From the NCBI GenBank assembly GCA_028293775.1, contig JAQGOD010000071.1, positions 1-10,109 on the forward strand: a stretch of DNA of 10,109 nt, read 5' to 3'. The position numbers were made by a program, and so were the translations under genes. This DNA comes from Gammaproteobacteria bacterium. Lineage in GTDB: Bacteria > Pseudomonadota > Gammaproteobacteria > Steroidobacterales > Steroidobacteraceae. Below the pieces are notes generated by a model. That model made no database searches and was not told the origin of the DNA. It was given only the letters and a program-made list of their open reading frames with translations. Below are positions 1 through 10,109 of this stretch, one piece after another (position 1 is the first letter of the stretch; every line of letters starts with the position of its first letter).

Positions 1-1420
1 CGATTGCCTCTGCTACACCGGCCCCATAAGCCGCATCTGCCTTGGCGCAATTGGCGATATGGCGTGCCACTACGGGCGGTGTGGCGCCTTTGATGGCCCG
101 CGCCGTATTCTCGAACAGCGCCCGCTGCTGCGCCGCCGTCATCAGGCGGAACAGATCGCCGGGCTGCGAGTAGTAGTCATTGTCCGCGCGGTGGTTCCAG
201 CGCTTTGCGGCGCCTTCGATCGCCAAAGGCGGCTCGGCAAAATGCGGCTGTGCGATCCATTCGCCCCGGCTGTTCGGTTCGTACGAGGTGGCGCCGCCGC
301 TGTTGCCGTCGACGCGCATCTGGCCGTCCCGATGATAGCTATGGAACGGACATTTCGGTGCATTCACCGGAATCTGCGAGTAATTGACGCCGAGCCGATA
401 GCGTTGCGTGTCGCCGTAGGAGAATAGACGTCCTTGCAGCATCTTGTCCGGCGAGAAACCGATCCCCGGCACGATATTGGCCGGACTGAAGGCGGCCTGT
501 TCGACATCTGCGAAGAAATTTTCTGGATTGCGATTCAGCTCCATCACGCCGACTTCGATCAGCGGGTAATCCTTGTGCGGCCACACCTTGGTCAGATCAA
601 AAGGGTTCAGTCGATACGTATGGGCATCGCTCTCCGGCATCACCTGGATGTACAGCGTCCAGCGCGGAAAATCGCCGCGCTCTATGCTTTCGTAGAGGTC
701 GCGCTGATTGCTTTCCCGATCCCGTCCGACCGTTGCTTGCGCTTCGGCATCCGTCAGATTCTCGACGCCTTGCTGGGTCTTGAACGTGAACTTCACCCAA
801 AATCGTTCGTTCCGTGCATTGAGAAAACTGTAGGTGTGGCTGCCGAATCCATGCATGTGGCGAAAACTGCGCGGAATCCCGCGATCACTCATCACGATGG
901 TGACCTGGTGCAACGCCTCGGGCAACAATGTCCAATAGTCCCAATTGTTGTCGGCACTGCGCATTCCGGTGCGCGGATCACGCTTGATCGCATGGTTGAG
1001 ATCGGAAAACTTCAGCGGGTCGCGGATGAAAAATACCGGCGTGTTGTTGCCCACCAGGTCCCAGTTGCCTTCTTCTGTGTAGAACTTCATCGCGAACCCG
1101 CGGATGTCGCGCTCTGCGTCCGCCGCGCCGCGCTCGCCGGCCACCGTGGAGAAACGTGTGAACATAGGGGTCTTCTTGCCCAATTCGGCGAAGATCCTTG
1201 CCTTCGTGTAACGCGTGATGTCGTGGGTTACCTTAAAGGTGCCGAACGCGCCGGCACCTTTGGCATGCATGCGCCGTTCGGGAATGACCTCCCGATCGAA
1301 ATGCGCCAGCTTCTCGAGAAACCAGACATCTTGCAACAATGCCGGTCCATGCGGACCCGCAGTCATGACGTTGTTGTCGTCCGCAACCGGAGCGCCGAAT
1401 TCAGTGGTGAGTTTATTCAT
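1..1420 (-). CDS. katA: Monofunctional haem catalase, clade 3 type (3' end cut by window edge)
   Basis: Converts H2O2 to water and oxygen; cytoplasmic, as no signal peptide is seen. The frame is open from the ATG at 1420 to the left edge (473 codons visible). It ends in a stretch typical of the last residues of small-subunit catalases ([16 protein letters not shown]), so only a few residues are probably missing. The distal active-site signature lies at residues 41-57 ([17 protein letters not shown]) with catalytic His52. The distal Asn is N125 in GNNTPVFF. The haem-ligand signature is RLFSYGDTQ with proximal Tyr335. The His-to-Asn spacing (73) and His-to-Tyr spacing (283) match bovine catalase. 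The start ATG overlaps the stop of the upstream HD gene (ATGA, 1420-1417) and has no strong Shine-Dalgarno of its own, which suggests translational coupling. It is the last visible gene of the oxdC-mntH-srpA operon. Function is near certain; the symbol katA is by family. Confidence 0.96.
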
Positions 1421-2121
1421 GTGGCGTCCCAAGCGGTATGAGCAGTGAGCACACTTCCCCCGTTCGTCGCCGGCTCCGCCGATTCGCGCCATGCAGACCC
1501 GCGGATCACGGTGCAGAAGTTGCCGCGACGGAACTTCGGATCCTTGTCGGCGAGCACGTCGGCCTTGACGTTGCCGAAGGTCGTGTCCGGTTTACGTTTG
1601 ATGCCATCGTAGAAGGCTTGGATGATATCCTCCTTGAAACGCCGGCTGCGCGGATGCACACCTACTACGGATTCGCGCTCGGCGTCGCTGTATTCGAAAT
1701 ACGAGAGACCAAGCACATCCATTTCGACACCGGCGGTTACCAGGGAAACCACCGGGTGCATGTGCACTGGAATGCCGGGTGTCGTGTGCAGGGCGATCGC
1801 GGTCCAGACCAGATCGATGTCCTGTTGCGCGATTCCGTGGCTATGCAGGAAATCGCGCGCGGCATTCGCGCCATCGACTTCGAAGCGCTGATTGGCGCTG
1901 CTGTGTCGTTCGGTCAAGCCCATGTCGTGAAACATGGCACCCACATAGAGCAATTCCGGGTCGAAGCTCAGGCCGCGGTGCTTGCCAGCCAGCGCGCCGA
2001 AGTAATAAACGCGACTGGAATGATGAAACAGCAGTGCGGATTCGGTGTCTCGAACCAACTCGGTCGCTTCGCGCGCCAGTCGGCTGTCGGGAATGCTGAT
2101 GCCCTCGATGCTTACATTCAC
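1417..2121 (-). CDS. HD-domain metal-dependent hydrolase, cyanamide hydratase-like
   Basis: A protein of 234 residues with the HD superfamily fold. The visible metal-binding pattern is His34 in FHHSSR, the His65-Asp66 doublet in AMFHDMGL, His112 in ALHTTPGI, His120/His122, and a downstream Asp135. This arrangement and the surrounding sequence resemble the cyanamide hydratase-like branch of HD proteins, in which a metal-bound water hydrates cyanamide to urea. The actual substrate here is unknown. I chose the GTG at 2121 as start because GGAGGA lies 6 nt before it, and the family-like sequence begins just after ([13 protein letters not shown]). The frame can be extended to 2199, but the extra 26 residues overlap the end of the cytochrome b561 gene and look like read-back. 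It starts 26 nt after the cytochrome gene, and its stop overlaps the catalase start (ATGA). No signal peptide or membrane segment is seen, so it is probably cytoplasmic. Confidence 0.85.
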
Positions 2122-2127
2122 AGGTGT

Positions 2128-2133
2128 TCCTCC
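2128..2133 (-). promoter_or_regulatory. Ribosome binding site of the HD-domain gene
   Basis: GGAGGA on the minus strand, 6 nt upstream of the GTG at 2121. It is a near-perfect Shine-Dalgarno and decides the start over the upstream in-frame codon at 2199. It lies in the 26-nt gap after the cytochrome b561 stop. Confidence 0.8.
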
Positions 2134-2147
2134 GGTATGGGTATAGA

Positions 2148-2726
2148 TCAATTCTCGCCTTCGGGAGCGCGCGGCCGGTGTGACCCTTGCTGCCCCCACG
2201 AAGCCATGCTTTCAAGCACTCCGTCACGCCGTATGAGGCCATGCAGCAGTGCCGCTCCGAGGTGGGCCAGGACCGTGGCGAAAAACAGATAGGCCAGGGT
2301 GGTGTGCAACTGCCGAAGCCAGGCATACAACGCCGCATCCTGCGGCAGTATCGGCGGCAAGTGCACCGGGCCATAGAGCACCACCGGATATGGCGCGGCC
2401 GAGAGCATGCCCCAACCGACCAGGGGCATGATGAACATCAGCAGGTACAACAGGACGTGCGAGCCTTTCGCAGCCAAGCGCATCCAGCGCGGCATCGTAT
2501 CGGGTAGCGGCGGCGGCGGATTCACCAGCCGGTTGATAAAACGGATGATCACCAGAACGAGAATTGCGATCCCGAGTGGCTTGTGGATCGAGAGCAGCAG
2601 GTGATAGCGGGGGGATTCCGACGTGACCATGCCCACGCCGATAAACAGCATCGTCAGAATCATCGCCGCCATGAGCCAGTGGAGCAAGCGCGAGGCGGCG
2701 GCAAAGCGTACTAGAGCTGTGCTCAT
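2148..2726 (-). CDS. Cytochrome b561 family di-haem membrane protein
   Basis: An inner-membrane protein of 192 residues of the prokaryotic cytochrome b561 (CybB/YodB) family, which passes electrons from the quinol pool across the membrane. Four hydrophobic segments are visible at about residues 14-34, 47-67, 90-110 and 140-163. The four expected haem b ligands are His16 (LLHW), His48 (IHKPLG), His141 (LHTTLAY) and His155 (LAHLG), offset by 1-4 from the E. coli CybB ligands. The ATG at 2726 overlaps the stop of the upstream catalase-related peroxidase (ATGA) and has a strong GGAGG 7 nt upstream. Adjacency to a membrane-anchored haem peroxidase suggests it supplies that enzyme with electrons from quinol (inference). 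The C-terminal tail after residue 165 is polar and cytoplasmic-looking. Family assignment is firm; the partner is not proven. Confidence 0.93.
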   Translation of the reverse strand: MSTALVRFAAASRLLHWLMAAMILTMLFIGVGMVTSESPRYHLLLSIHKPLGIAILVLVIIRFINRLVNPPPPLPDTMPRWMRLAAKGSHVLLYLLMFIMPLVGWGMLSAAPYPVVLYGPVHLPPILPQDAALYAWLRQLHTTLAYLFFATVLAHLGAALLHGLIRRDGVLESMASWGQQGSHRPRAPEGEN

Positions 2727-3823
2727 GGCGCGGCCTCCGAACGTACGGCTTGCGCTGTGACTGCACTGGGCGCTTTCCTGTCCTTCTCGCCGGCACGCAA
2801 CGTAAACGAACGCGAATAGGCCGCCGAACGGGCGCTGAGCAGTGGATCGTCAGAAGGCTCGATGCCTGAAGGGAGCACCAGCGGATCGAAGTTGACGTCG
2901 GCGCAGGACCCGCCGTCCTCGCTCGACACGCGATCAATTGTCACTGTCCCGGCATCGAGCTGTTGGCGGTCGAGGGGCCAAGGCAGTGTGGCGTCGTTCG
3001 TGGGATCGCCTGGCTGGCCGAGCGTAACCATCAAGCGCCACTGCAGCGGATGTAGGTGAATTTGCGTGATCAGCTCATCAAACAAATAGTTTTTGTCCGC
3101 ATCTCCGGACTGCGCCTCAGTCTGTGCCGCGAATGGCTCGGTCGGCACCAAGGCCCAGCGTACCGGGAGGCTTCTGCCTGCGGCGTTGACGAAATGGAAC
3201 GCATCGAGGCTGTTGAAAGTGCTATCGGCAAAGCCGGAGGAAACGGCACGCGTCTTGATGATTGCCATGGCGCGTACTGTCTCCGGATGACGTGCTAGAA
3301 ACTCGTGCAGCGCCTTCGGATCGGGCTTGCCAGTAGCCGGATCAGGCTTTGAGGCCAGCAACTGGTCGTAAAAACCCTGCGCTGAGTTCACGGGAAAGAC
3401 CGGGATGTTGTTCATACCGGTCCGCCATTCACCACCGCCGGGGGGCAAAAAGCGCAGCGCCATGCTCCGCACCGTCGTGACCTCATCCGCCTGCATCGGC
3501 GCGCCGCCGGCCAAAGCGAAGCGCCCAATCACGGGCACGTGGCCAGGCTTGAAGATCTCCGCCTTCGACACGGAGGCTGCTGCCCCACCGCTGTCAAACC
3601 AACCGGAAACACACACGCCCTTGGCGTGGTTGCGGCGGAAACCCGGATGAACGCCGCTGTTCTCCTGGAATGCCCCAATGATCCGGGCGGGCGTCAGTCT
3701 GCCAGGCGACAGCCAGCCACCGGTGTATGCGAACGCGCCGGCCACTATCGCCACGATGGCGCCAATCAGCATCAGGCGAACAAGCTTGGCGGCAGGATTG
3801 AGCGGCGTGTCCTTCAGGCCCAC
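2723..3823 (-). CDS. srpA: Catalase-related peroxidase (SrpA-like), membrane-anchored
   Basis: A protein of 366 residues of the catalase-related peroxidase group, shorter than true catalases. One hydrophobic segment at residues 14-33 (LVRLMLIGAIVAIVAGAFAY) acts as a signal anchor, which places the haem domain in the periplasm. Catalase-fold active-site residues are present: distal His66 in RRNHAKG, distal Asn138 in MNNIPVF, and the probable proximal Tyr336 in ARSAAYSRSF. The His-Asn spacing is 72, close to that of catalase. Family members generally act as organic or hydrogen peroxide peroxidases with weak catalase activity; the donor here may be the co-transcribed cytochrome b561. The start is a GTG at 3823, with a GAAGG about 8 nt upstream inside the end of mntH and only 3 nt after the mntH stop. 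The C-terminal 25 residues are low-complexity. The symbol follows family usage and is not species-specific evidence. Confidence 0.92.
   Translation of the reverse strand: MGLKDTPLNPAAKLVRLMLIGAIVAIVAGAFAYTGGWLSPGRLTPARIIGAFQENSGVHPGFRRNHAKGVCVSGWFDSGGAAASVSKAEIFKPGHVPVIGRFALAGGAPMQADEVTTVRSMALRFLPPGGGEWRTGMNNIPVFPVNSAQGFYDQLLASKPDPATGKPDPKALHEFLARHPETVRAMAIIKTRAVSSGFADSTFNSLDAFHFVNAAGRSLPVRWALVPTEPFAAQTEAQSGDADKNYLFDELITQIHLHPLQWRLMVTLGQPGDPTNDATLPWPLDRQQLDAGTVTIDRVSSEDGGSCADVNFDPLVLPSGIEPSDDPLLSARSAAYSRSFTLRAGEKDRKAPSAVTAQAVRSEAAP
2734..2738 (-). promoter_or_regulatory. Ribosome binding site of cytochrome b561 gene
   Basis: GGAGG on the minus strand, 7 nt before the ATG at 2726 and inside the last codons of the peroxidase gene. 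It shows that the overlapping cytochrome gene has its own strong initiation site as well as possible reinitiation. Confidence 0.7.
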
Positions 3824-3826
3824 TTT

Positions 3827-5158
3827 TTACGCCTTCGGCCAATATTGCGCGATCAACACGGTGTTCAGCAGGACGACGAGGACCAGCGCCAGCACCGATG
3901 CAAACACCGTACCTTTGCGCATCGCAAACTTGCCCATCACCGATTTGCGCGACGACAGTATTACCAGTGCGGCCATCGGCAAGGGCAGAACGAAGCTCAG
4001 TACCACCTGGCTTAACACCATGGCTGTCATCGTGTTGCAGCTGAGCGCGACTACAAAGGCGGGTACCATCGTGATCAGGCGGCGTATGCCGACCGGTATG
4101 CGGTATCCGACGAAACCCTGCATGATCACCTGTCCTGCCATCGTGCCGATCACCGAGCTGGAGATTCCGGATGCAATCAACGCGATCAGGAATACGCCGG
4201 CAGAGGCGATGCCGACCGCCGGAATCAGCGTGTGATATGCGACACCGATATCCGAGATACCCTGTGCCGACTTGCCGAACGCGGATGTCGCCATCATCAC
4301 CATCGCGAGATTGACCAGCGCGGCGAAGCCGAGAGCAATCACAACCTCCCGGTTTGAGAACCGCAACAGGCCGCGGCGTTCGAAGTCGTTGCGCGGAAGC
4401 GTCCTAGACTGAGTCAATCCCGAATGGAGGTAGAGCGTGTGCGGCATGATCGTCGCGCCGATAATCCCGACCGCCAGCATCACCGCGGACCGGTCATGCA
4501 ATTCCGGTACGACCGTGTGGAAGAGAGCGGCGTGCCAGTCCGGCGGTGCAACGACGAGTTCCCACAGGTAGCTGATGCCGATTACACCGACGAACGCGGC
4601 AATCACCAGTTCGAGTGGTCGGAAGCCTCGCTTGTCCAGATGCAAAATTGCGAAAGTCACCACGCCGGTGATGCTCAAGCCGCACAGCAACGAGACATGA
4701 AACAACAGCGAAATGCCCAGTGCGCCGCCGATGAACTCAGCGACATCGGTCGCCATCGCGGCGACTTCCGAGGCGATCCACATACCGACCACCACGGGTC
4801 GCGAGAACTGGTCTCTGCACAGTTGCGCAAGATTGCGTCCAGTGACAATACCCAGCTTGGCGGACATTGCCTGGAACAGCATCGCGACGAGGCTCGCGAT
4901 CAAGACGACCCACAGCAATTGGTAGCCATAAGTCGAACCGGCCTGGATGTTTGTCGCGAAGTTGCCGGGATCCATGTAGGCGACCGATGCCATGATTGCA
5001 GGCCCGGCAAACGGCAGGAGTGCCCGCACGCCTTTGCGGCCTCCATTGAGCACCTCGCGCGCGGCGAGTTCTGTCTGCAGCGTGGTGCCGGAAAGCAGCC
5101 CGCCATCCACCTGGAGTGCGCTGGAACCCGGGCGGAAGCGATCTGCAGCGACGGCCAT
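3827..5158 (-). CDS. mntH: Nramp family proton-coupled Mn2+ transporter MntH
   Basis: An inner-membrane importer of Mn2+ (also Fe2+ and other divalent metals) driven by protons; 443 residues with about 11 hydrophobic segments. The Nramp metal-binding motifs are intact: DPGN at residues 63-66 in transmembrane helix 1 (SVAYMDPGNFATN) and MPH at 238-240 in helix 6 (IMPHTLYLHS). Helix 3 carries MATDVAEF (135-142), also conserved in bacterial MntH proteins. The N-terminus before DPGN is about 29 residues longer than in E. coli MntH and looks unstructured. The ATG at 5158 lies 6 nt after the oxdC stop with only a weak ribosome site, so coupling to oxdC translation is likely. Its place directly after a Mn-dependent enzyme suggests a role in supplying that enzyme's metal (inference). 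I saw no mntR-type switch next to it. Confidence 0.96.
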   Translation of the reverse strand: MAVAADRFRPGSSALQVDGGLLSGTTLQTELAAREVLNGGRKGVRALLPFAGPAIMASVAYMDPGNFATNIQAGSTYGYQLLWVVLIASLVAMLFQAMSAKLGIVTGRNLAQLCRDQFSRPVVVGMWIASEVAAMATDVAEFIGGALGISLLFHVSLLCGLSITGVVTFAILHLDKRGFRPLELVIAAFVGVIGISYLWELVVAPPDWHAALFHTVVPELHDRSAVMLAVGIIGATIMPHTLYLHSGLTQSRTLPRNDFERRGLLRFSNREVVIALGFAALVNLAMVMMATSAFGKSAQGISDIGVAYHTLIPAVGIASAGVFLIALIASGISSSVIGTMAGQVIMQGFVGYRIPVGIRRLITMVPAFVVALSCNTMTAMVLSQVVLSFVLPLPMAALVILSSRKSVMGKFAMRKGTVFASVLALVLVVLLNTVLIAQYWPKA

Positions 5159-5164
5159 TGGCGT

Positions 5165-6469
5165 TTAGACCGGCACGATGTCAGGGCGGCTGTTCGGAAA
5201 CTTCGCGAGCGTTTCACGGCTGATATTCAGGGTATCCATCACCATTTTTGGCGGCGTATGGGTCAGCCAGTCAGACAGCGAGACTTCTTCATAGTGATCG
5301 GACTTGAACAGCTCCAAGAACACCAGATCGGTGTTGCCTGTGTTCTGCACATAGTGGCCGAAGCTCTTCTTCACGTAGCCGATGTCGCCCGGGCGGAAGT
5401 CTGCGGTCATCGCCGCGGGACCTGTGTTGAACACGGTCATCCGGGCTTGGCCCTTGATGAAGAACGCCCATTCATCCGCGTTCGGATGCCAGTGCAGCTC
5501 GCGCATGGCGCCCGGCTTGACCGTGACCAGCGCGGCAGCGACAGTCTTTGACACTTTGAAATTGCCGCTGTCAGCGATCTGCACGGATCCGCCCCGGGTC
5601 TGCCGAATCGGCGCCAGCTCACTCAACGAAAATATGAACGGATGGGGCGGCTGGCCTCTGGCTGACAACACCGCGCGCTGATCGGCAGGCAGCGGGCCCG
5701 GGTCCTCACCCTGGAAGATCCACAGATTGTCGAGCGGGATGTTCTTGAATGCTTCTGCCGGTACGCCGAAGTTCAGAGCAAGCACATCCGGCGGTGTGTG
5801 CGCGATCCAATCGGTCAGCAGCAGCGTATTAAATTCGGATGACTTGCCGTTGTCGAAGGCGAGCAGGAACTCGGCACCCGTCCGGCCCAGGCCTTGCAAC
5901 GAGTGCGGCAGGCCCGGCGGAAAGTACCACAGGTCGCCGGTCTTGACGTCAGCGACTTGTGCGCGCCCGAGTTCGTCGAGAATCGTAATGCGGCATTTGC
6001 CGTCCAGCATGATGGCCCACTCGGCTTGTTGGTGCCAATGCAGTTCGCGGATACCGTTCTCACCGAGCCGCATATTGACGCCCGCGAAGTCTTCTGAGAT
6101 CGCGAAGTCGCCTTGCGTGACTTGGCGTGCCCACCCGCCGTTTTGATAACGCTTGTGCGCGATATTGAAAGATGACCAGAACAGCGGCATTCCGTTGATA
6201 TCGGTGGCCGGCGGGTCCAGGAACGAGGGGAGCTGGCTGGCCAGCGCTGGGTTCTGCGGGCCCGGGTCATCCAGGCTAGAGGGGCTCTTTGCGTTGATCC
6301 GCCCTTCGCCCGGCGAGTCCGGGTTGCCGAACGAGCGCATCGGCGGCGCGACGGAGTTGCCGAACGATTGTGCTCCGGCGGCCGCGGCCACACTGAGAGC
6401 GGCCGCCGACGCAGCCGCGCCGACCAGAACTTTGCGTCGTGATAAGTCAGTAGGTGAGTCACTGGTCAT
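5165..6469 (-). CDS. oxdC: Bicupin oxalate decarboxylase, probably Tat-exported
   Basis: A protein of 434 residues with two cupin domains, matching Mn-dependent oxalate decarboxylases (oxalate to formate plus CO2). Cupin 1 metal ligands are His144, His146, Glu150 and His189 (RELHWHQQAEWA...LPHS). Cupin 2 ligands are His326, His328, Glu333 and His372 (RELHWHPNADEW...FGHY). Ligand spacings equal those of Bacillus OxdC. The Arg92/Arg270 equivalents are Arg141 and Arg323. The active-site lid SENST of Bacillus appears as SEFNT (211-215), keeping the catalytic Glu as Glu212, which favours decarboxylase over oxidase. The N-terminus has a twin-arginine signal: SRRKVLV at 10-16, an Ala-rich hydrophobic stretch to about 31, and a possible AGA cleavage site near residue 33. 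Start ATG 6469 has GGAG 8 nt upstream. It is the first gene of the minus-strand operon. A related exported Mn bicupin, MncA of Synechocystis, is an alternative functional model. Confidence 0.92.
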   Translation of the reverse strand: MTSDSPTDLSRRKVLVGAAASAAALSVAAAAGAQSFGNSVAPPMRSFGNPDSPGEGRINAKSPSSLDDPGPQNPALASQLPSFLDPPATDINGMPLFWSSFNIAHKRYQNGGWARQVTQGDFAISEDFAGVNMRLGENGIRELHWHQQAEWAIMLDGKCRITILDELGRAQVADVKTGDLWYFPPGLPHSLQGLGRTGAEFLLAFDNGKSSEFNTLLLTDWIAHTPPDVLALNFGVPAEAFKNIPLDNLWIFQGEDPGPLPADQRAVLSARGQPPHPFIFSLSELAPIRQTRGGSVQIADSGNFKVSKTVAAALVTVKPGAMRELHWHPNADEWAFFIKGQARMTVFNTGPAAMTADFRPGDIGYVKKSFGHYVQNTGNTDLVFLELFKSDHYEEVSLSDWLTHTPPKMVMDTLNISRETLAKFPNSRPDIVPV

Positions 6470-6604
6470 AAATTCTTCTCCAGCCCTCCGATGAAACGGA
6501 TTACGTGATGTGGAGAAAGTGTCGGTGCCGGCTGTGTCTGTTCTATTTCGACCAGGCGTGCTGCCATTACGATTGAAACAGCGCCAACAGAGCCGCGCCG
6601 ATGC

Positions 6605-6633
6605 TTGCGATAAGCCAGAAATCGCTCGATACT
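6605..6633 (+). promoter_or_regulatory. Possible sigma-70 promoter of the alkene reductase gene
   Basis: TTGCGA (6605-6610), a 17-nt spacer and GATACT (6628-6633) each match 4 of 6 consensus bases at ideal spacing. Transcription would start near 6640, which fits translation from 6667 and excludes the longer frame start at 6601. The inverted repeat at 6621-6630 overlaps the -10 box. This is a weak prediction. Confidence 0.3.
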
Positions 6634-6650
6634 GGCGTCGATCCCAGCGT

Positions 6651-6659
6651 GGAGCGAGG
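6651..6659 (+). promoter_or_regulatory. Ribosome binding site of the alkene reductase gene
   Basis: GGAGCGAGG contains GAGG ending 7 nt before the ATG at 6667. It supports that start over the in-frame ATG at 6601, whose 22 extra residues do not look like the enzyme family. Confidence 0.65.
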
Positions 6660-6666
6660 TGCGGTC

Positions 6667-7830
6667 ATGTCGGCTGAATTGCTGTTCGAGCCCTTCAAGC
6701 TGGGCCCTTATGCGTTGCCCCATCGGATCGCGATGGCACCCCTGACACGATCACGAGCGCGGCAGCCGGGCAACGTGCCGACTCTCCTCAACGCGTGCTA
6801 CTACGCCCAGCGCGCATCGGCCGCCTTCATCATCAGCGAGGCTAGTCAGGTTTCGATGCAGGGGCAGGGCTACGCCTGGACGCCGGGCATTCATAGCCGC
6901 GAGCAGGTCGAGGGCTGGCGGCTGGTTACCGATGCCGTGCACCAAGCGGGCGGCAGGATCTTCATGCAGCTTTGGCATGTCGGGCGCATCTCCCATCCAG
7001 CATTGCAACCGGACAACATGCTTCCCGTCGCGCCCTCGGCGATCAAGCCGAGCGGCGACGCCTTCATCGAGAACGAGAGCGGCGAGGGTGCGCTCGTACC
7101 GTTCGTCACGCCTCGAGCTCTTCAGATCGAGGAGATGCCTTATCTCGTCCAGCAATACGTGCGTGGCGCGAGGAACGCGTTGCGCGCAGGCTTCGATGGC
7201 GTCGAGATCCATGGCGCCAATGGTTATCTGCTGGATCAGTTCATCAATTCGCGCACCAATCGCAGGGAAGATCGCTATGGTAGTTCGGTCGAGAACCGAG
7301 CACGGCTGTTACTCGAAGTGGTCGAGGCAGTTGGCGACGTGTGGGGCCGGGACCGCGTGGGGGTAAGATTGTCGCCGCTCGGCACCTTCAATGACATCGG
7401 GGACGATGATCCCGAGAGCACGTTCGGCCATATCGCAACCGCGCTCAGCGCCTGGCAGCTCGCATACCTGCACATCGTCAATCCTGCCATGCCGGCGCTG
7501 CTGAAAGGTATGGAGCCGGACACTCGTTCTTTGGCGATGGTCGACCTGATACGCAAGAAGTACCGCGGCGCGTTGATCATCGCCGGCGGCTTCGATCACG
7601 ATACGGCCGAGCAATGGCTGAAGAAGGGCAGGGCAGAACTCATCGCTTTCGGTCGCAAGTTCCTTGCGAACCCCGATTTGCCGGAGCGCTTTCGGCTGCG
7701 AGCGCCGCTCAACGCCGAAGATCCTGCGACCTTCTATGGTGGTGGTGCGAAAGGCTACACGGACTATCCCAGCCTCGCGCAGGATCGCGGCGAGCTGCCA
7801 AGACCCTGCGTTGATGAAACATGGCGGTAG
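6667..7830 (+). CDS. Old Yellow Enzyme family FMN-dependent alkene reductase (NemA-like)
   Basis: A cytoplasmic flavoenzyme of 387 residues that uses NAD(P)H and bound FMN to reduce activated C=C bonds (enones, maleimides, sometimes nitro compounds or nitrate esters). Family landmarks in order are: the N-terminal LFEPFKLGPYALPHRIAMAP with Thr27 in APLTRSR near the flavin; LWHVGRISHP; the substrate-binding pair His182/Asn185 and proton-donor Tyr187 in IHGANGYLLDQF; NSRTNRREDRYG; and the C-terminal GYTDYPSL typical of the NemA/xenobiotic reductase group. Length is normal for the family. The ATG at 6667 was chosen for its ribosome site and because family sequence begins there. It is transcribed away from the oxdC operon and stops 2 nt before the end of the convergent kinase gene. 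The physiological substrate cannot be read from sequence; adjacency to peroxide-defence genes hints at electrophile or oxidative stress (inference). Confidence 0.94.
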   Translation: MSAELLFEPFKLGPYALPHRIAMAPLTRSRARQPGNVPTLLNACYYAQRASAAFIISEASQVSMQGQGYAWTPGIHSREQVEGWRLVTDAVHQAGGRIFMQLWHVGRISHPALQPDNMLPVAPSAIKPSGDAFIENESGEGALVPFVTPRALQIEEMPYLVQQYVRGARNALRAGFDGVEIHGANGYLLDQFINSRTNRREDRYGSSVENRARLLLEVVEAVGDVWGRDRVGVRLSPLGTFNDIGDDDPESTFGHIATALSAWQLAYLHIVNPAMPALLKGMEPDTRSLAMVDLIRKKYRGALIIAGGFDHDTAEQWLKKGRAELIAFGRKFLANPDLPERFRLRAPLNAEDPATFYGGGAKGYTDYPSLAQDRGELPRPCVDETWR

Positions 7831-7832
7831 CG

Positions 7833-10109
7833 CTACGATATAGAGGCTCGTCGAGCTCGCAGATAATTCGTTGCTTTATCCACTTCCTGCCGCAATTGCC
7901 GCTCGAGCTCTGATAAGTCAGCGCCGCCGCTGACACCGGCCGCCTCCTCGAGGCGGCGGGCTGCCTCGCTCGTCATGTGCGCGCGCATGTTGGCGCTCGA
8001 CCCCTTGAGAGAATGCGCCGCTCGCTTCACGGCCGCAAGATCGCCGCGTTCGAGCGCAAACTGAATTTCCCGCAATGTCGCGTCGCCGGAATCGATGAAC
8101 ACTTGCACCAGATCTTGAGCGAAGAGCTGATCGCCGTCTGCGACCGCCATCAGCTGTTCCCAATCGACAGGGTCGGTCGCCTGCACGGAAATGTCGGTGG
8201 ATAGCAAGGCAGGGTCTGCGGGCGAGGGCGCGGGCCGCGCTAGATGCCGTTGGATGGCTTCGTCAAGCTGCAGGCGATCAATTGGCTTAGTCAGGTAATC
8301 ATCCATGCCCGCATCGCGGCATTGCTGCTCGGTTCCCTTCATTGCATCGGCGGTAAGCGCAATGATTGGAATGCGGCGTTTGCCCTGCTCGCGCCGCCGG
8401 ATTTCGCGCGCAGCCTCATAGCCGTCCATCACGGGCATTTGGCAGTCCATGAGAATGAGGTGATAGCGTCCGCTCTCCCAAGCGGCGATGGCTTCCTCAC
8501 CGTTGTTGACAACATCGACTTCAAATCCGATGCTTTTCAGCACGCCTCGAGCGACCTTTTGGTTGACAGCATTGTCCTCTGCGAGCAGAAGCCGTTCAGT
8601 GCCGGGATGGCGGGCGCGTTGCGCAGTGACGATCGGTTGTGTGCGGCTATGCCAGCGCTCGCCCTGTACGGACATGACGCGATTCAAGCAGTCCCGCAGC
8701 TCGCGATGCGATACCGGTTTGAGCACATAGGCCGCAAATCCCAGCGTCGCAAAATCCGCGGCGCCGCGCATTCCCTGGGCAGAGGTCAGTAGTACGAGAC
8801 GCGTTGCCTTGAATCGGTCATCGGCTGTGATCCGCCGCCCGAGCTCAAATCCATCGCAAGACGGCATCATGTAATCCAGTATGGCCACTTCAAATGGTTG
8901 ATCCTGAATCAAGGACGCTTGAAGCGACTGTATGGCGGAGTCGGCATCGTTGACGCATTCAACATTCATGCCGAGCTGCGTTAGCTGCAGTGTCAGTACT
9001 TTGCGGTTCGTGGCATTGTCATCGACGATGAGTACCCGGCGGTTCGTCAGGATTTGGTCCTCGAACACCGGCCGATCGAGCTTTCGACTCGATGCGCCAA
9101 ACCTCGCCGTAAACCAGAAAATCGATCCCAAGCCTTCGTTGCTCTCGACACCGGCTTCGCCGTGCATCAGTTCGGCCAGCCGGCGCACGATGGATAGCCC
9201 GAGGCCCGTACCGCCGTAATGCCGGGTGGTCGATGCGTCTATTTGCGAGAACGGTTGGAATAGCGAGTCTTTGAGTTCTCTTGGAATGCCGATTCCCGTG
9301 TCGCGTACTTCGCACCGTATCGCGCAGCCTTCGTTATCGGCCGATACAAGGCGCAAATCGATCGACACCTCACCGTTCTGCGTAAACTTGATGGCGTTGC
9401 TGCCGAGATTCAGGAGAATCTGCCGCACGCGGCCCGGGTCGCCGATGAGGTGGTCCGGGAGCATCGGATCAATGTTCGTGATTAGCTCGAGCCCTTTGCC
9501 ATGCGCCTGAATTGCCAGCATGTGTGCGACGTCGTCCACGGTGGCGCGCAAGTCCATATCGATGCGCTCAAGATCCAGCTTGCCGGCTTCGATCTTTGAA
9601 AAGTCCAGAATGTCGTTGATGATGTTGAGCAGTCCGCCGGCGCTGTCGCGGATGGTTTCAGTGAAGTCGCGCTGTCCAGGATCGAGACGCGTATCGAGCA
9701 GCAGCTCAGTCATACCGATGACGCCGTTCATCGGCGTGCGAATCTCGTGACTCATATTGGCAAGAAATTGGGACTTGGCTCGTGCAGCGGACTCGGCGCG
9801 ATCCTTGGCCTCGAGCAGCTCGCTGTTGGCCAACTCGAGATCTTTCGTGCGATGTGCAACCAGTTCGCCGAGAAGGGCCGCATGTCGCCGCAGGCGCCCG
9901 ACACGTAGCCGGTACAGTGCGCTTGCGGCGGCCAGGATACTGAGGATGCAGAGCAGCAGGAACCACCACGTCTGATAAAAGTATGGCTTTAGTTTGAAGC
10001 GCAGGCGCGCACCGTCGCCGTTCCAGGCGCCGTCATTGTTGGCCGCGATCACATGGAAGGAATAAGTGCCCGGCGGCAACCGTGTGTAATAGGCGGTCCT
10101 GCGGTTGCC
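7833..10109 (-). CDS. Hybrid sensor histidine kinase with Y_Y_Y sensor end, two receivers and HPt (5' end cut by window edge)
   Basis: The frame is open to the right edge; 758 residues are visible and the N-terminal part lies outside. The visible start ([12 protein letters not shown]...AANNDGAWN) is the end of a Y_Y_Y domain. That domain usually follows a periplasmic Reg_prop beta-propeller, so the missing part is probably several hundred residues (inference). Next comes one transmembrane helix (about 9962-9910), a short coiled linker, HisKA with phospho-acceptor His in SHEIRTP (codon 9749-9747), and HATPase with an N box (GSNAIKFT), DTGIGIP and GGTGLGLSI. Receiver 1 has Asp in ILDYMMP (8876-8874). 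Receiver 2 has Asp in [11 protein letters not shown] (8447-8445). An HPt domain ends the protein, with His in [11 protein letters not shown] (8015-8013). All phosphorelay residues are intact, so this is a complete His-Asp-Asp-His relay of BarA-like layout without a DNA-binding output; a separate response regulator is needed. The TTG at 10079 is internal, not a start. Confidence 0.95.

Follow-up and report, generated by a model that had tools for sequence, protein, structure and literature searches.

Why should the gene for a predicted exported oxalate decarboxylase be packed into one row with genes for a manganese importer and for catalase-family proteins? The question is raised by a 10,109-nt contig from a soil bacterium of the Gammaproteobacteria, family Steroidobacteraceae (JAQGOD010000071.1, positions 1 to 10,109, forward strand; assembly GCA_028293775.1), the whole of which we call the window. 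By open reading frame (ORF) coordinates, six genes, oxdC, mntH, srpA-like, b561, HD and katA, follow one another on its minus strand. A gap of 6 nt separates oxdC from mntH and one of 3 nt separates mntH from srpA; srpA and b561 share a 4-nt ATGA overlap, 26 nt lie between b561 and HD, and HD and katA again overlap by 4 nt (ATGA). This layout matches exactly what a preliminary description of the sequence had given. ORFs arranged by chance would not put six genes on the same strand with no gap wider than 26 nt, and this spacing suggests that all six are co-transcribed. When compared with other genomes, the row resembles a chain of three recurring pairs: oxdC-mntH, srpA-b561 and HD-katA. On balance, we lean toward an oxalate-decarboxylation operon with oxdC-mntH as its core, extended in this organism by srpA-b561 and HD-katA for peroxide removal.

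The oxdC-mntH pairing recurs widely. We assembled 84 OxdC loci, consisting of the best 80 of 426 confirmed genome-contig matches and four loci from plasmid records, with flanks of 10 kb or less on each side (at least 9.9 kb on both sides in 60 of the 84, and downstream of oxdC in 64). In 41 of the 84, OxdC is followed at 5-211 nt by the start of an MntH match on the same strand; this count comes from loci that are not independent: many are from Burkholderia, several are contigs of metagenome-assembled genomes (MAGs), and some share a genome or species (e.g., L003/L035, L060/L072 and L034/L081). In an OxdC tree of 80 rows, which omits L052, L056 and L079, whose matched stretch contains a stop, and L046 and L055, with under 1.5 kb of downstream sequence, the linked rows fall within one starred clade of 49 rows, 41 of them linked and 8 not. 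This clade reaches Burkholderiaceae, Comamonadaceae, Rhodanobacteraceae and Nevskiaceae. The mntH-link label changes 4 times on the tree, compared to a mean of 27.1 when labels are shuffled. The pair is also present in three genomes found later (G490, G917 and G973); at locus L120 of G363, no oxdC-mntH pair was found within 1.2 kb. At three loci (L012, L020 and L021), an MntH match sits on the strand opposite to OxdC, about 9-10 kb away.

The window MntH (3827..5158, minus strand, 443 aa) is an Nramp-type Mn(II) importer that scores 489 bits against NF001923 (cut-off, 430). It carries DPGN at residue 63 and MPH at residue 238, which we take to be the metal-site motifs of MntH/Nramp proteins. 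A search for MntH copies in 18 OxdC-bearing genomes gave 39 matches, 30 of them with a locus. These 30, along with the MntH proteins of the earlier loci, make up a tree of 58 rows, from which pieces aligned over 300 residues or fewer, rows with stops and duplicates were omitted; row L029_un is truly linked, its match being broken by a frameshift. One 100/100 branch holds the linked rows and seven unlinked Burkholderiaceae copies. Ten other copies, 36-41% identical to the window MntH, fall outside this branch, across a split near which the tree program flagged long branches. Judged by this tree, the OxdC-linked MntH, including that of the window, is a subfamily of its own, and its membership is broader than linkage because the seven unlinked copies share the branch. 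Two of those seven (L020 and L021), each some 9 kb away from OxdC and on the strand opposite to it, are perhaps broken-up oxdC-mntH pairs. The proposal in the preliminary description that the row brings its own metal supply is supported by the same-strand neighbors at 41 of 84 loci and by the separate MntH subfamily.

OxdC (5165..6469, minus strand, 434 aa) is probably a bicupin oxalate decarboxylase with a twin-arginine translocation (Tat)-type signal, converting oxalate to formate and CO2 with a predicted dependence on Mn. It scores 543.9 bits against TIGR03404 (curated cut-off, 254.2) and 388 bits against the B. subtilis OxdC structures (PDB 1j58 and 5vg3; aligned residues 71-419). In a 17-sequence alignment, the Mn-ligand positions H144, H146, E150 and H189, and H326, H328, E333 and H372, are invariant, as is the lid residue Glu212. 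We take the metal-ligand and lid roles of these residues from B. subtilis OxdC, and Glu212 presumably occupies the position of its proton-donor glutamate. The window protein resembles B. subtilis OxdC in being a bicupin with all eight Mn-ligand positions and the lid glutamate, and differs from it in having a paired-arginine (RR, Tat-type) signal and a lid that reads SEFNT rather than SENST. All 82 loci (of the 84) in which FGNPD was found have an RR at most 50 residues ahead of it, by a loose test whose 50-residue reach can extend past the start codon. Like the window OxdC, Synechocystis MncA (Sll1358, PDB 2vqa) is a Mn bicupin with a Tat-type signal, the likeness in export and Mn trapping being a prediction only; unlike B. 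subtilis OxdC, it stands further from the window OxdC in sequence (235.6 versus 388 bits). Excerpts of the MncA paper describe an oxalate decarboxylase that depends on Mn, is a substrate of Tat and, prior to its secretion, traps Mn in the cytosol, and call B. subtilis OxdC cytosolic (PMC11742986).

By analogy with the MncA precedent, Mn would be loaded into OxdC before export. In the mechanism we propose, MntH would import Mn(II) as the cytosolic supply, and OxdC would fold around Mn in the cytosol, leave folded via Tat, and turn oxalate into CO2 and formate outside the cytosol. SrpA could draw on quinol electrons, passed through b561, to reduce peroxide outside the cytosol, and KatA, with its cyanamide-hydratase-like HD partner, would remove cytosolic peroxide. 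The peroxide could arise from OxdC turnover or in oxalate-rich oxidizing niches. According to sections of one study of oxalate decarboxylase (OxDC), superoxide was trapped during turnover and the enzyme is reportedly not inhibited by H2O2 (PMC5423638). The assignment to two compartments rests on sequence only, with an RR signal on OxdC, a hydrophobic anchor on the SrpA-like protein and neither feature seen on KatA. We infer the enzyme activities, the loading of OxdC with Mn from MntH, and that peroxide clean-up explains why the extra genes are there. Cyanamide acts as an inhibitor on activation by catalase. We regard as doubtful a bolder version in which the linked MntH evolved as a dedicated supplier that loads one exported Mn enzyme, and in which the row is a self-contained two-compartment oxalate unit with HD as a nitrile/cyanamide-type hydratase protecting the catalase.

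Several observations weigh against reading the whole row as an oxalate operon. An oxalate transporter or formate-handling gene is absent from the window, which also offers no regulator or promoter evidence. Alphaproteobacterial OxdC rows in our set carry RR signals and never a linked MntH, so the link is not essential to OxdC function. At E values up to 1, b561 and HD were found near OxdC at none of the 84 loci. SrpA was also counted at 0 of 84, a 26% match to the catalase of L007 and a 33-residue match (E = 0.88) in L067 being discounted. Wider regions of G917, G973 and G007 contained no match to SrpA, b561, HD or KatA. Because SrpA, b561 and HD are missing from all 84 loci and from these wider regions, OxdC usually seems to need none of the three nearby. 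Hence the six-gene row has the look of something assembled locally. KatA lies near OxdC at one of the 84 loci (L007), where it is 43% identical and on the opposite strand.

OxdC was then sought in samples of the families and orders to which the nearest genomes belong, with matches in 1 of 196, 3 of 300, 2 of 180, 3 of 74 and 2 of 180 genomes, these being partly the same genomes. The full six-gene row occurs in none of the 84 OxdC loci, the OxdC samples, or the SrpA and HD loci (about 1.5-kb flanks), a sample outside which the nearest metagenome kin (OxdC 93% and 86% identical) fall. The preliminary description had treated the six genes as one module and had named, as the observation that would count against it, homologs that are not neighbors in other genomes. 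On that point the row divides. The oxdC-mntH part of the module is supported, with neighbors at 41 of 84 loci and an MntH subfamily of its own, while SrpA, b561 and HD are not neighbors of OxdC at any of those 84 loci and KatA is so at only one. The idea of peroxide clean-up in two compartments stays plausible in this organism and is not conserved at the OxdC loci examined.

Two neighboring genes at other OxdC loci offer weak support for the oxalate reading. In L002, a major facilitator superfamily (MFS) carrier (8259-9761, minus strand) is divergent to oxdC-mntH; it scores 337.5 bits against the L-lactate model NF049980 (cut-off, 320) and 165.8 bits against the oxalate/formate model TIGR00890, below the cut-off of 374.85. 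In L084, an Agrobacterium plasmid locus, oxdC is directly preceded by a gene (9043-9876, plus strand) whose annotation is formate/nitrite transporter family; this gene falls below all NCBIfam cut-offs.

The srpA-b561 genes are a recurring pair of their own. The SrpA-like protein (2723..3823, minus strand, 366 aa, GTG start) is a short single-domain catalase-family peroxidase with 100.3 bits against PF00199. Its His66 and Tyr336 are near-invariant among 16 rows and are presumably the heme histidine and tyrosine, and we read its N terminus as a putative hydrophobic anchor. A protein 99% identical to it occurs in a Gammaproteobacteria MAG. The b561 protein (2148..2726, minus strand, 192 aa) meets the cut-off of the cytochrome b561 family PF01292 with 101.3 bits and misses that of the E. 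coli CybB-type model NF008566 (45.1 bits; cut-off, 170); His16, His48, His90 and His141 are near-invariant among 11 rows. In the order of G005, a Burkholderiales MAG, 24 of 300 genomes contained a total of 27 SrpA loci, viewed with flanks of about 1.5 kb. A b561 gene lies within the 1.5-kb flank in 8 of the 9 loci whose SrpA is at least 39.6% identical to that of the window and is missing there from all 18 loci of lower identity, the dividing line having been chosen after seeing the data. At plasmid SrpA loci, b561 is adjacent in four of five; in L086, the remaining one, a transposase gene of the IS5 family takes that place. The window shares its gene order with these known pairs. From the gene pairing, the SrpA-like protein could act as a peroxidase fed with quinol electrons through b561.

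The surroundings of this pair bear on a different explanation of the row, namely a general acid, peroxide and Mn stress operon. OxdC would then consume protons or hold Mn, MntH would swap Fe for Mn under H2O2, SrpA-b561 and KatA would remove H2O2, and oxalate catabolism would be incidental. Genes for an extracytoplasmic function (ECF) sigma factor and an anti-sigma factor lie near SrpA in two of three annotated plasmid loci (L086 and L087; not L085), which suggests a stress regulon. In contrast to such loci, the window has no recognized ECF sigma/anti-sigma genes, its pair sits downstream of oxdC-mntH, and neither an ECF nor an OxyR-type gene was found among the window ORFs of known family. 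Most of the six genes would, as a matter of general knowledge, suit peroxide or acid stress, and SrpA and KatA belong to one superfamily (24% identity); the linked MntH subfamily, however, is distinct and follows OxdC across families without catalases. We consider a stress operon possible, if unlikely.

The third pair, HD-katA, is a minority arrangement. For HD (1417..2121, minus strand, 234 aa) we took as start a GTG preceded by GGAGG; the longest possible ORF, from the GTG at 2199, would overlap b561. The protein scores 32.4 bits against PF01966 and 54.7 bits against the cyanamide hydratase family TIGR03401, below its cut-off of 109.85. A phmmer search gave 7.8e-5 to 6dka, aligned only over residues 36-139 of the long-start form, and all three PDB matches are yeast Ddi2, a cyanamide hydratase of which HD appears to be a distant relative. 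The top 13 Foldseek matches are also all Ddi2, with a best E value of 1.2e-3, none below 0.001, from a weak model (predicted local distance difference test score, 61.9). His34, His65-Asp66, His112 and Asp135 are near-invariant among 34 rows. A role for HD as a nucleotide phosphohydrolase is not favored, as the PDB and top fold matches are Ddi2, though the family cut-off was missed and the model is weak.

KatA (1..1420, minus strand) is a heme catalase with 473 aa present; the gene runs past base 1, with no stop in the window. It exceeds the cut-offs of PF00199 (645.7 bits) and PF06628 (70.8 bits), and its match extends over the entire catalase domain. Across three genome samples with flanks of about 1.5 kb, HD and KatA are neighbors in 4 of 35 HD loci, two in the order and strand of the window (L152 and L166) and two on opposite strands (L162 and L170). 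KatA was absent from all five plasmid HD loci within 6-kb flanks. Among 12 loci with a KatA at least 66% identical, one of which (L220) begins at a contig end, two (L215 and L219) have HD immediately upstream in the same orientation. At a third KatA locus (L238), HD lies 1.7 kb upstream, as seen on widening that one view. GlxA-type regulators stand beside HD or HD-katA in L088, L089 and L158, the last with DJ-1/PfpI and AraC-type helix-turn-helix domains. The KatA next to HD in L158, from G442, matches in two pieces (6540-7565) and looks frameshifted.

Other genomes give hints of larger groupings of these genes. In the Ramlibacter MAG G004 (L237/L238), a single contig carries oxdC-mntH and, about 19-23 kb away, katA and HD. 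On contig C84 of G363 (L121 and L122), a second OxdC (45% identical) and an SrpA-b561 pair (SrpA 57% identical) are about 15 kb apart. The longest contig given for an SrpA homolog (P0129, 80% identical) and that given for an HD homolog (P0243, 89% identical) have the same length, 34,894 bases, and these two genes probably share one contig in another organism.

The row could also be a passive concatenation, in which three independently useful pairs came under one promoter in this lineage with no joint function. Each pair does exist without the others, and the lack of SrpA, b561 and HD at all 84 OxdC loci fits such a history. The two 4-nt overlaps and the gaps of 3 to 26 nt instead suggest selection for co-expression, and the probable presence of the SrpA and HD homologs on one contig elsewhere likewise argues for more than chance accumulation, making concatenation without joint function improbable in our judgment. 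That the bicupin is mainly an oxalate oxidase, with H2O2 as a main product handled by the catalases, is very improbable: the SEFNT lid, the two catalase-family genes in one row and the existence of bicupin oxalate oxidases 49% identical to OxDC fit it, but the lid glutamate is retained, an active-site glutamate of B. subtilis OxDC acts as a proton donor (both literature points from sections of PMC5423638), and OxdC loci that lack catalase neighbors generally have the same EFNT lid.

The remaining features of the window concern the row as a whole and its surroundings. All six row proteins pass Pfam cut-offs; NCBIfam cut-offs are passed by OxdC and MntH and by none of the other four. GC content is even over the six genes (0.587-0.627). 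A phage or mobile origin of the row found no support, as viral contigs lacked an OxdC relative and GC content is even. Positions 1-6800 contain one promoter-like site, compared to 1.8 expected from shuffles, and eight terminator-like sites, compared to 6.0 expected. The three terminator-like sites on the strand of the genes are all inside srpA, and the scan placed none at gene junctions. The region 6470..6600, between oxdC and a divergent gene, is the presumed promoter region of the row; no consensus sigma-70 site was found in it. There was no Rfam match up to E = 1, and thus no RNA element such as a Mn riboswitch was detected. The divergent gene encodes an OYE-family flavin oxidoreductase (ATG at 6601 or 6667, end at 7830). 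Adjoining it is a hybrid histidine kinase gene (7833-10079, minus strand) with two receiver stretches and an Hpt domain, which nearly reaches the window end. We found no reason to count these two genes with the row.

We recognized no description of the oxdC-mntH pair or of the six-gene set in the open-license literature searched, in agreement with the preliminary description, which did not know the set as a described system. No papers on the srpA-b561 pair or on HD with a catalase were found in this literature. The word mntH is absent from the main text of the MncA paper (PMC11742986). For Granulicella, excerpts list an oxalate decarboxylase among upregulated proteins in a section on the manganese proteome and mention two mntH copies, with no pairing stated in those excerpts (PMC7315648). 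Cupin oxalate enzymes are predicted for Paraburkholderia terrae in a paper that does not contain mntH (PMC5986945). The oxc-frc cluster of Burkholderia phytofirmans serves oxalate degradation, as predicted for the window, in a related bacterial group, and is unlike the window in that the latter has a bicupin oxdC with mntH. Bicupin OxdC and the CoA-dependent product of oxc belong to different enzyme families. In passages on that cluster, the name oxalate decarboxylase refers to oxc, which is accompanied by formyl-CoA transferase (frc) and an antiporter (PMC3886118).

The novelty lies in a metal-supply partner that recurs beside a known enzyme and that we did not find described, and in a peroxide extension seen only in this window. 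How exported metalloenzymes obtain the right metal is a live question, for which the printed case that we found is the cyanobacterial MncA. A Mn oxalate decarboxylase with a Tat-type signal and its own MntH subfamily makes the metal-supply side of this question testable. The pairing also points to a route of oxalate handling in Burkholderiaceae and soil Gammaproteobacteria that is distinct from the oxc-frc cluster.

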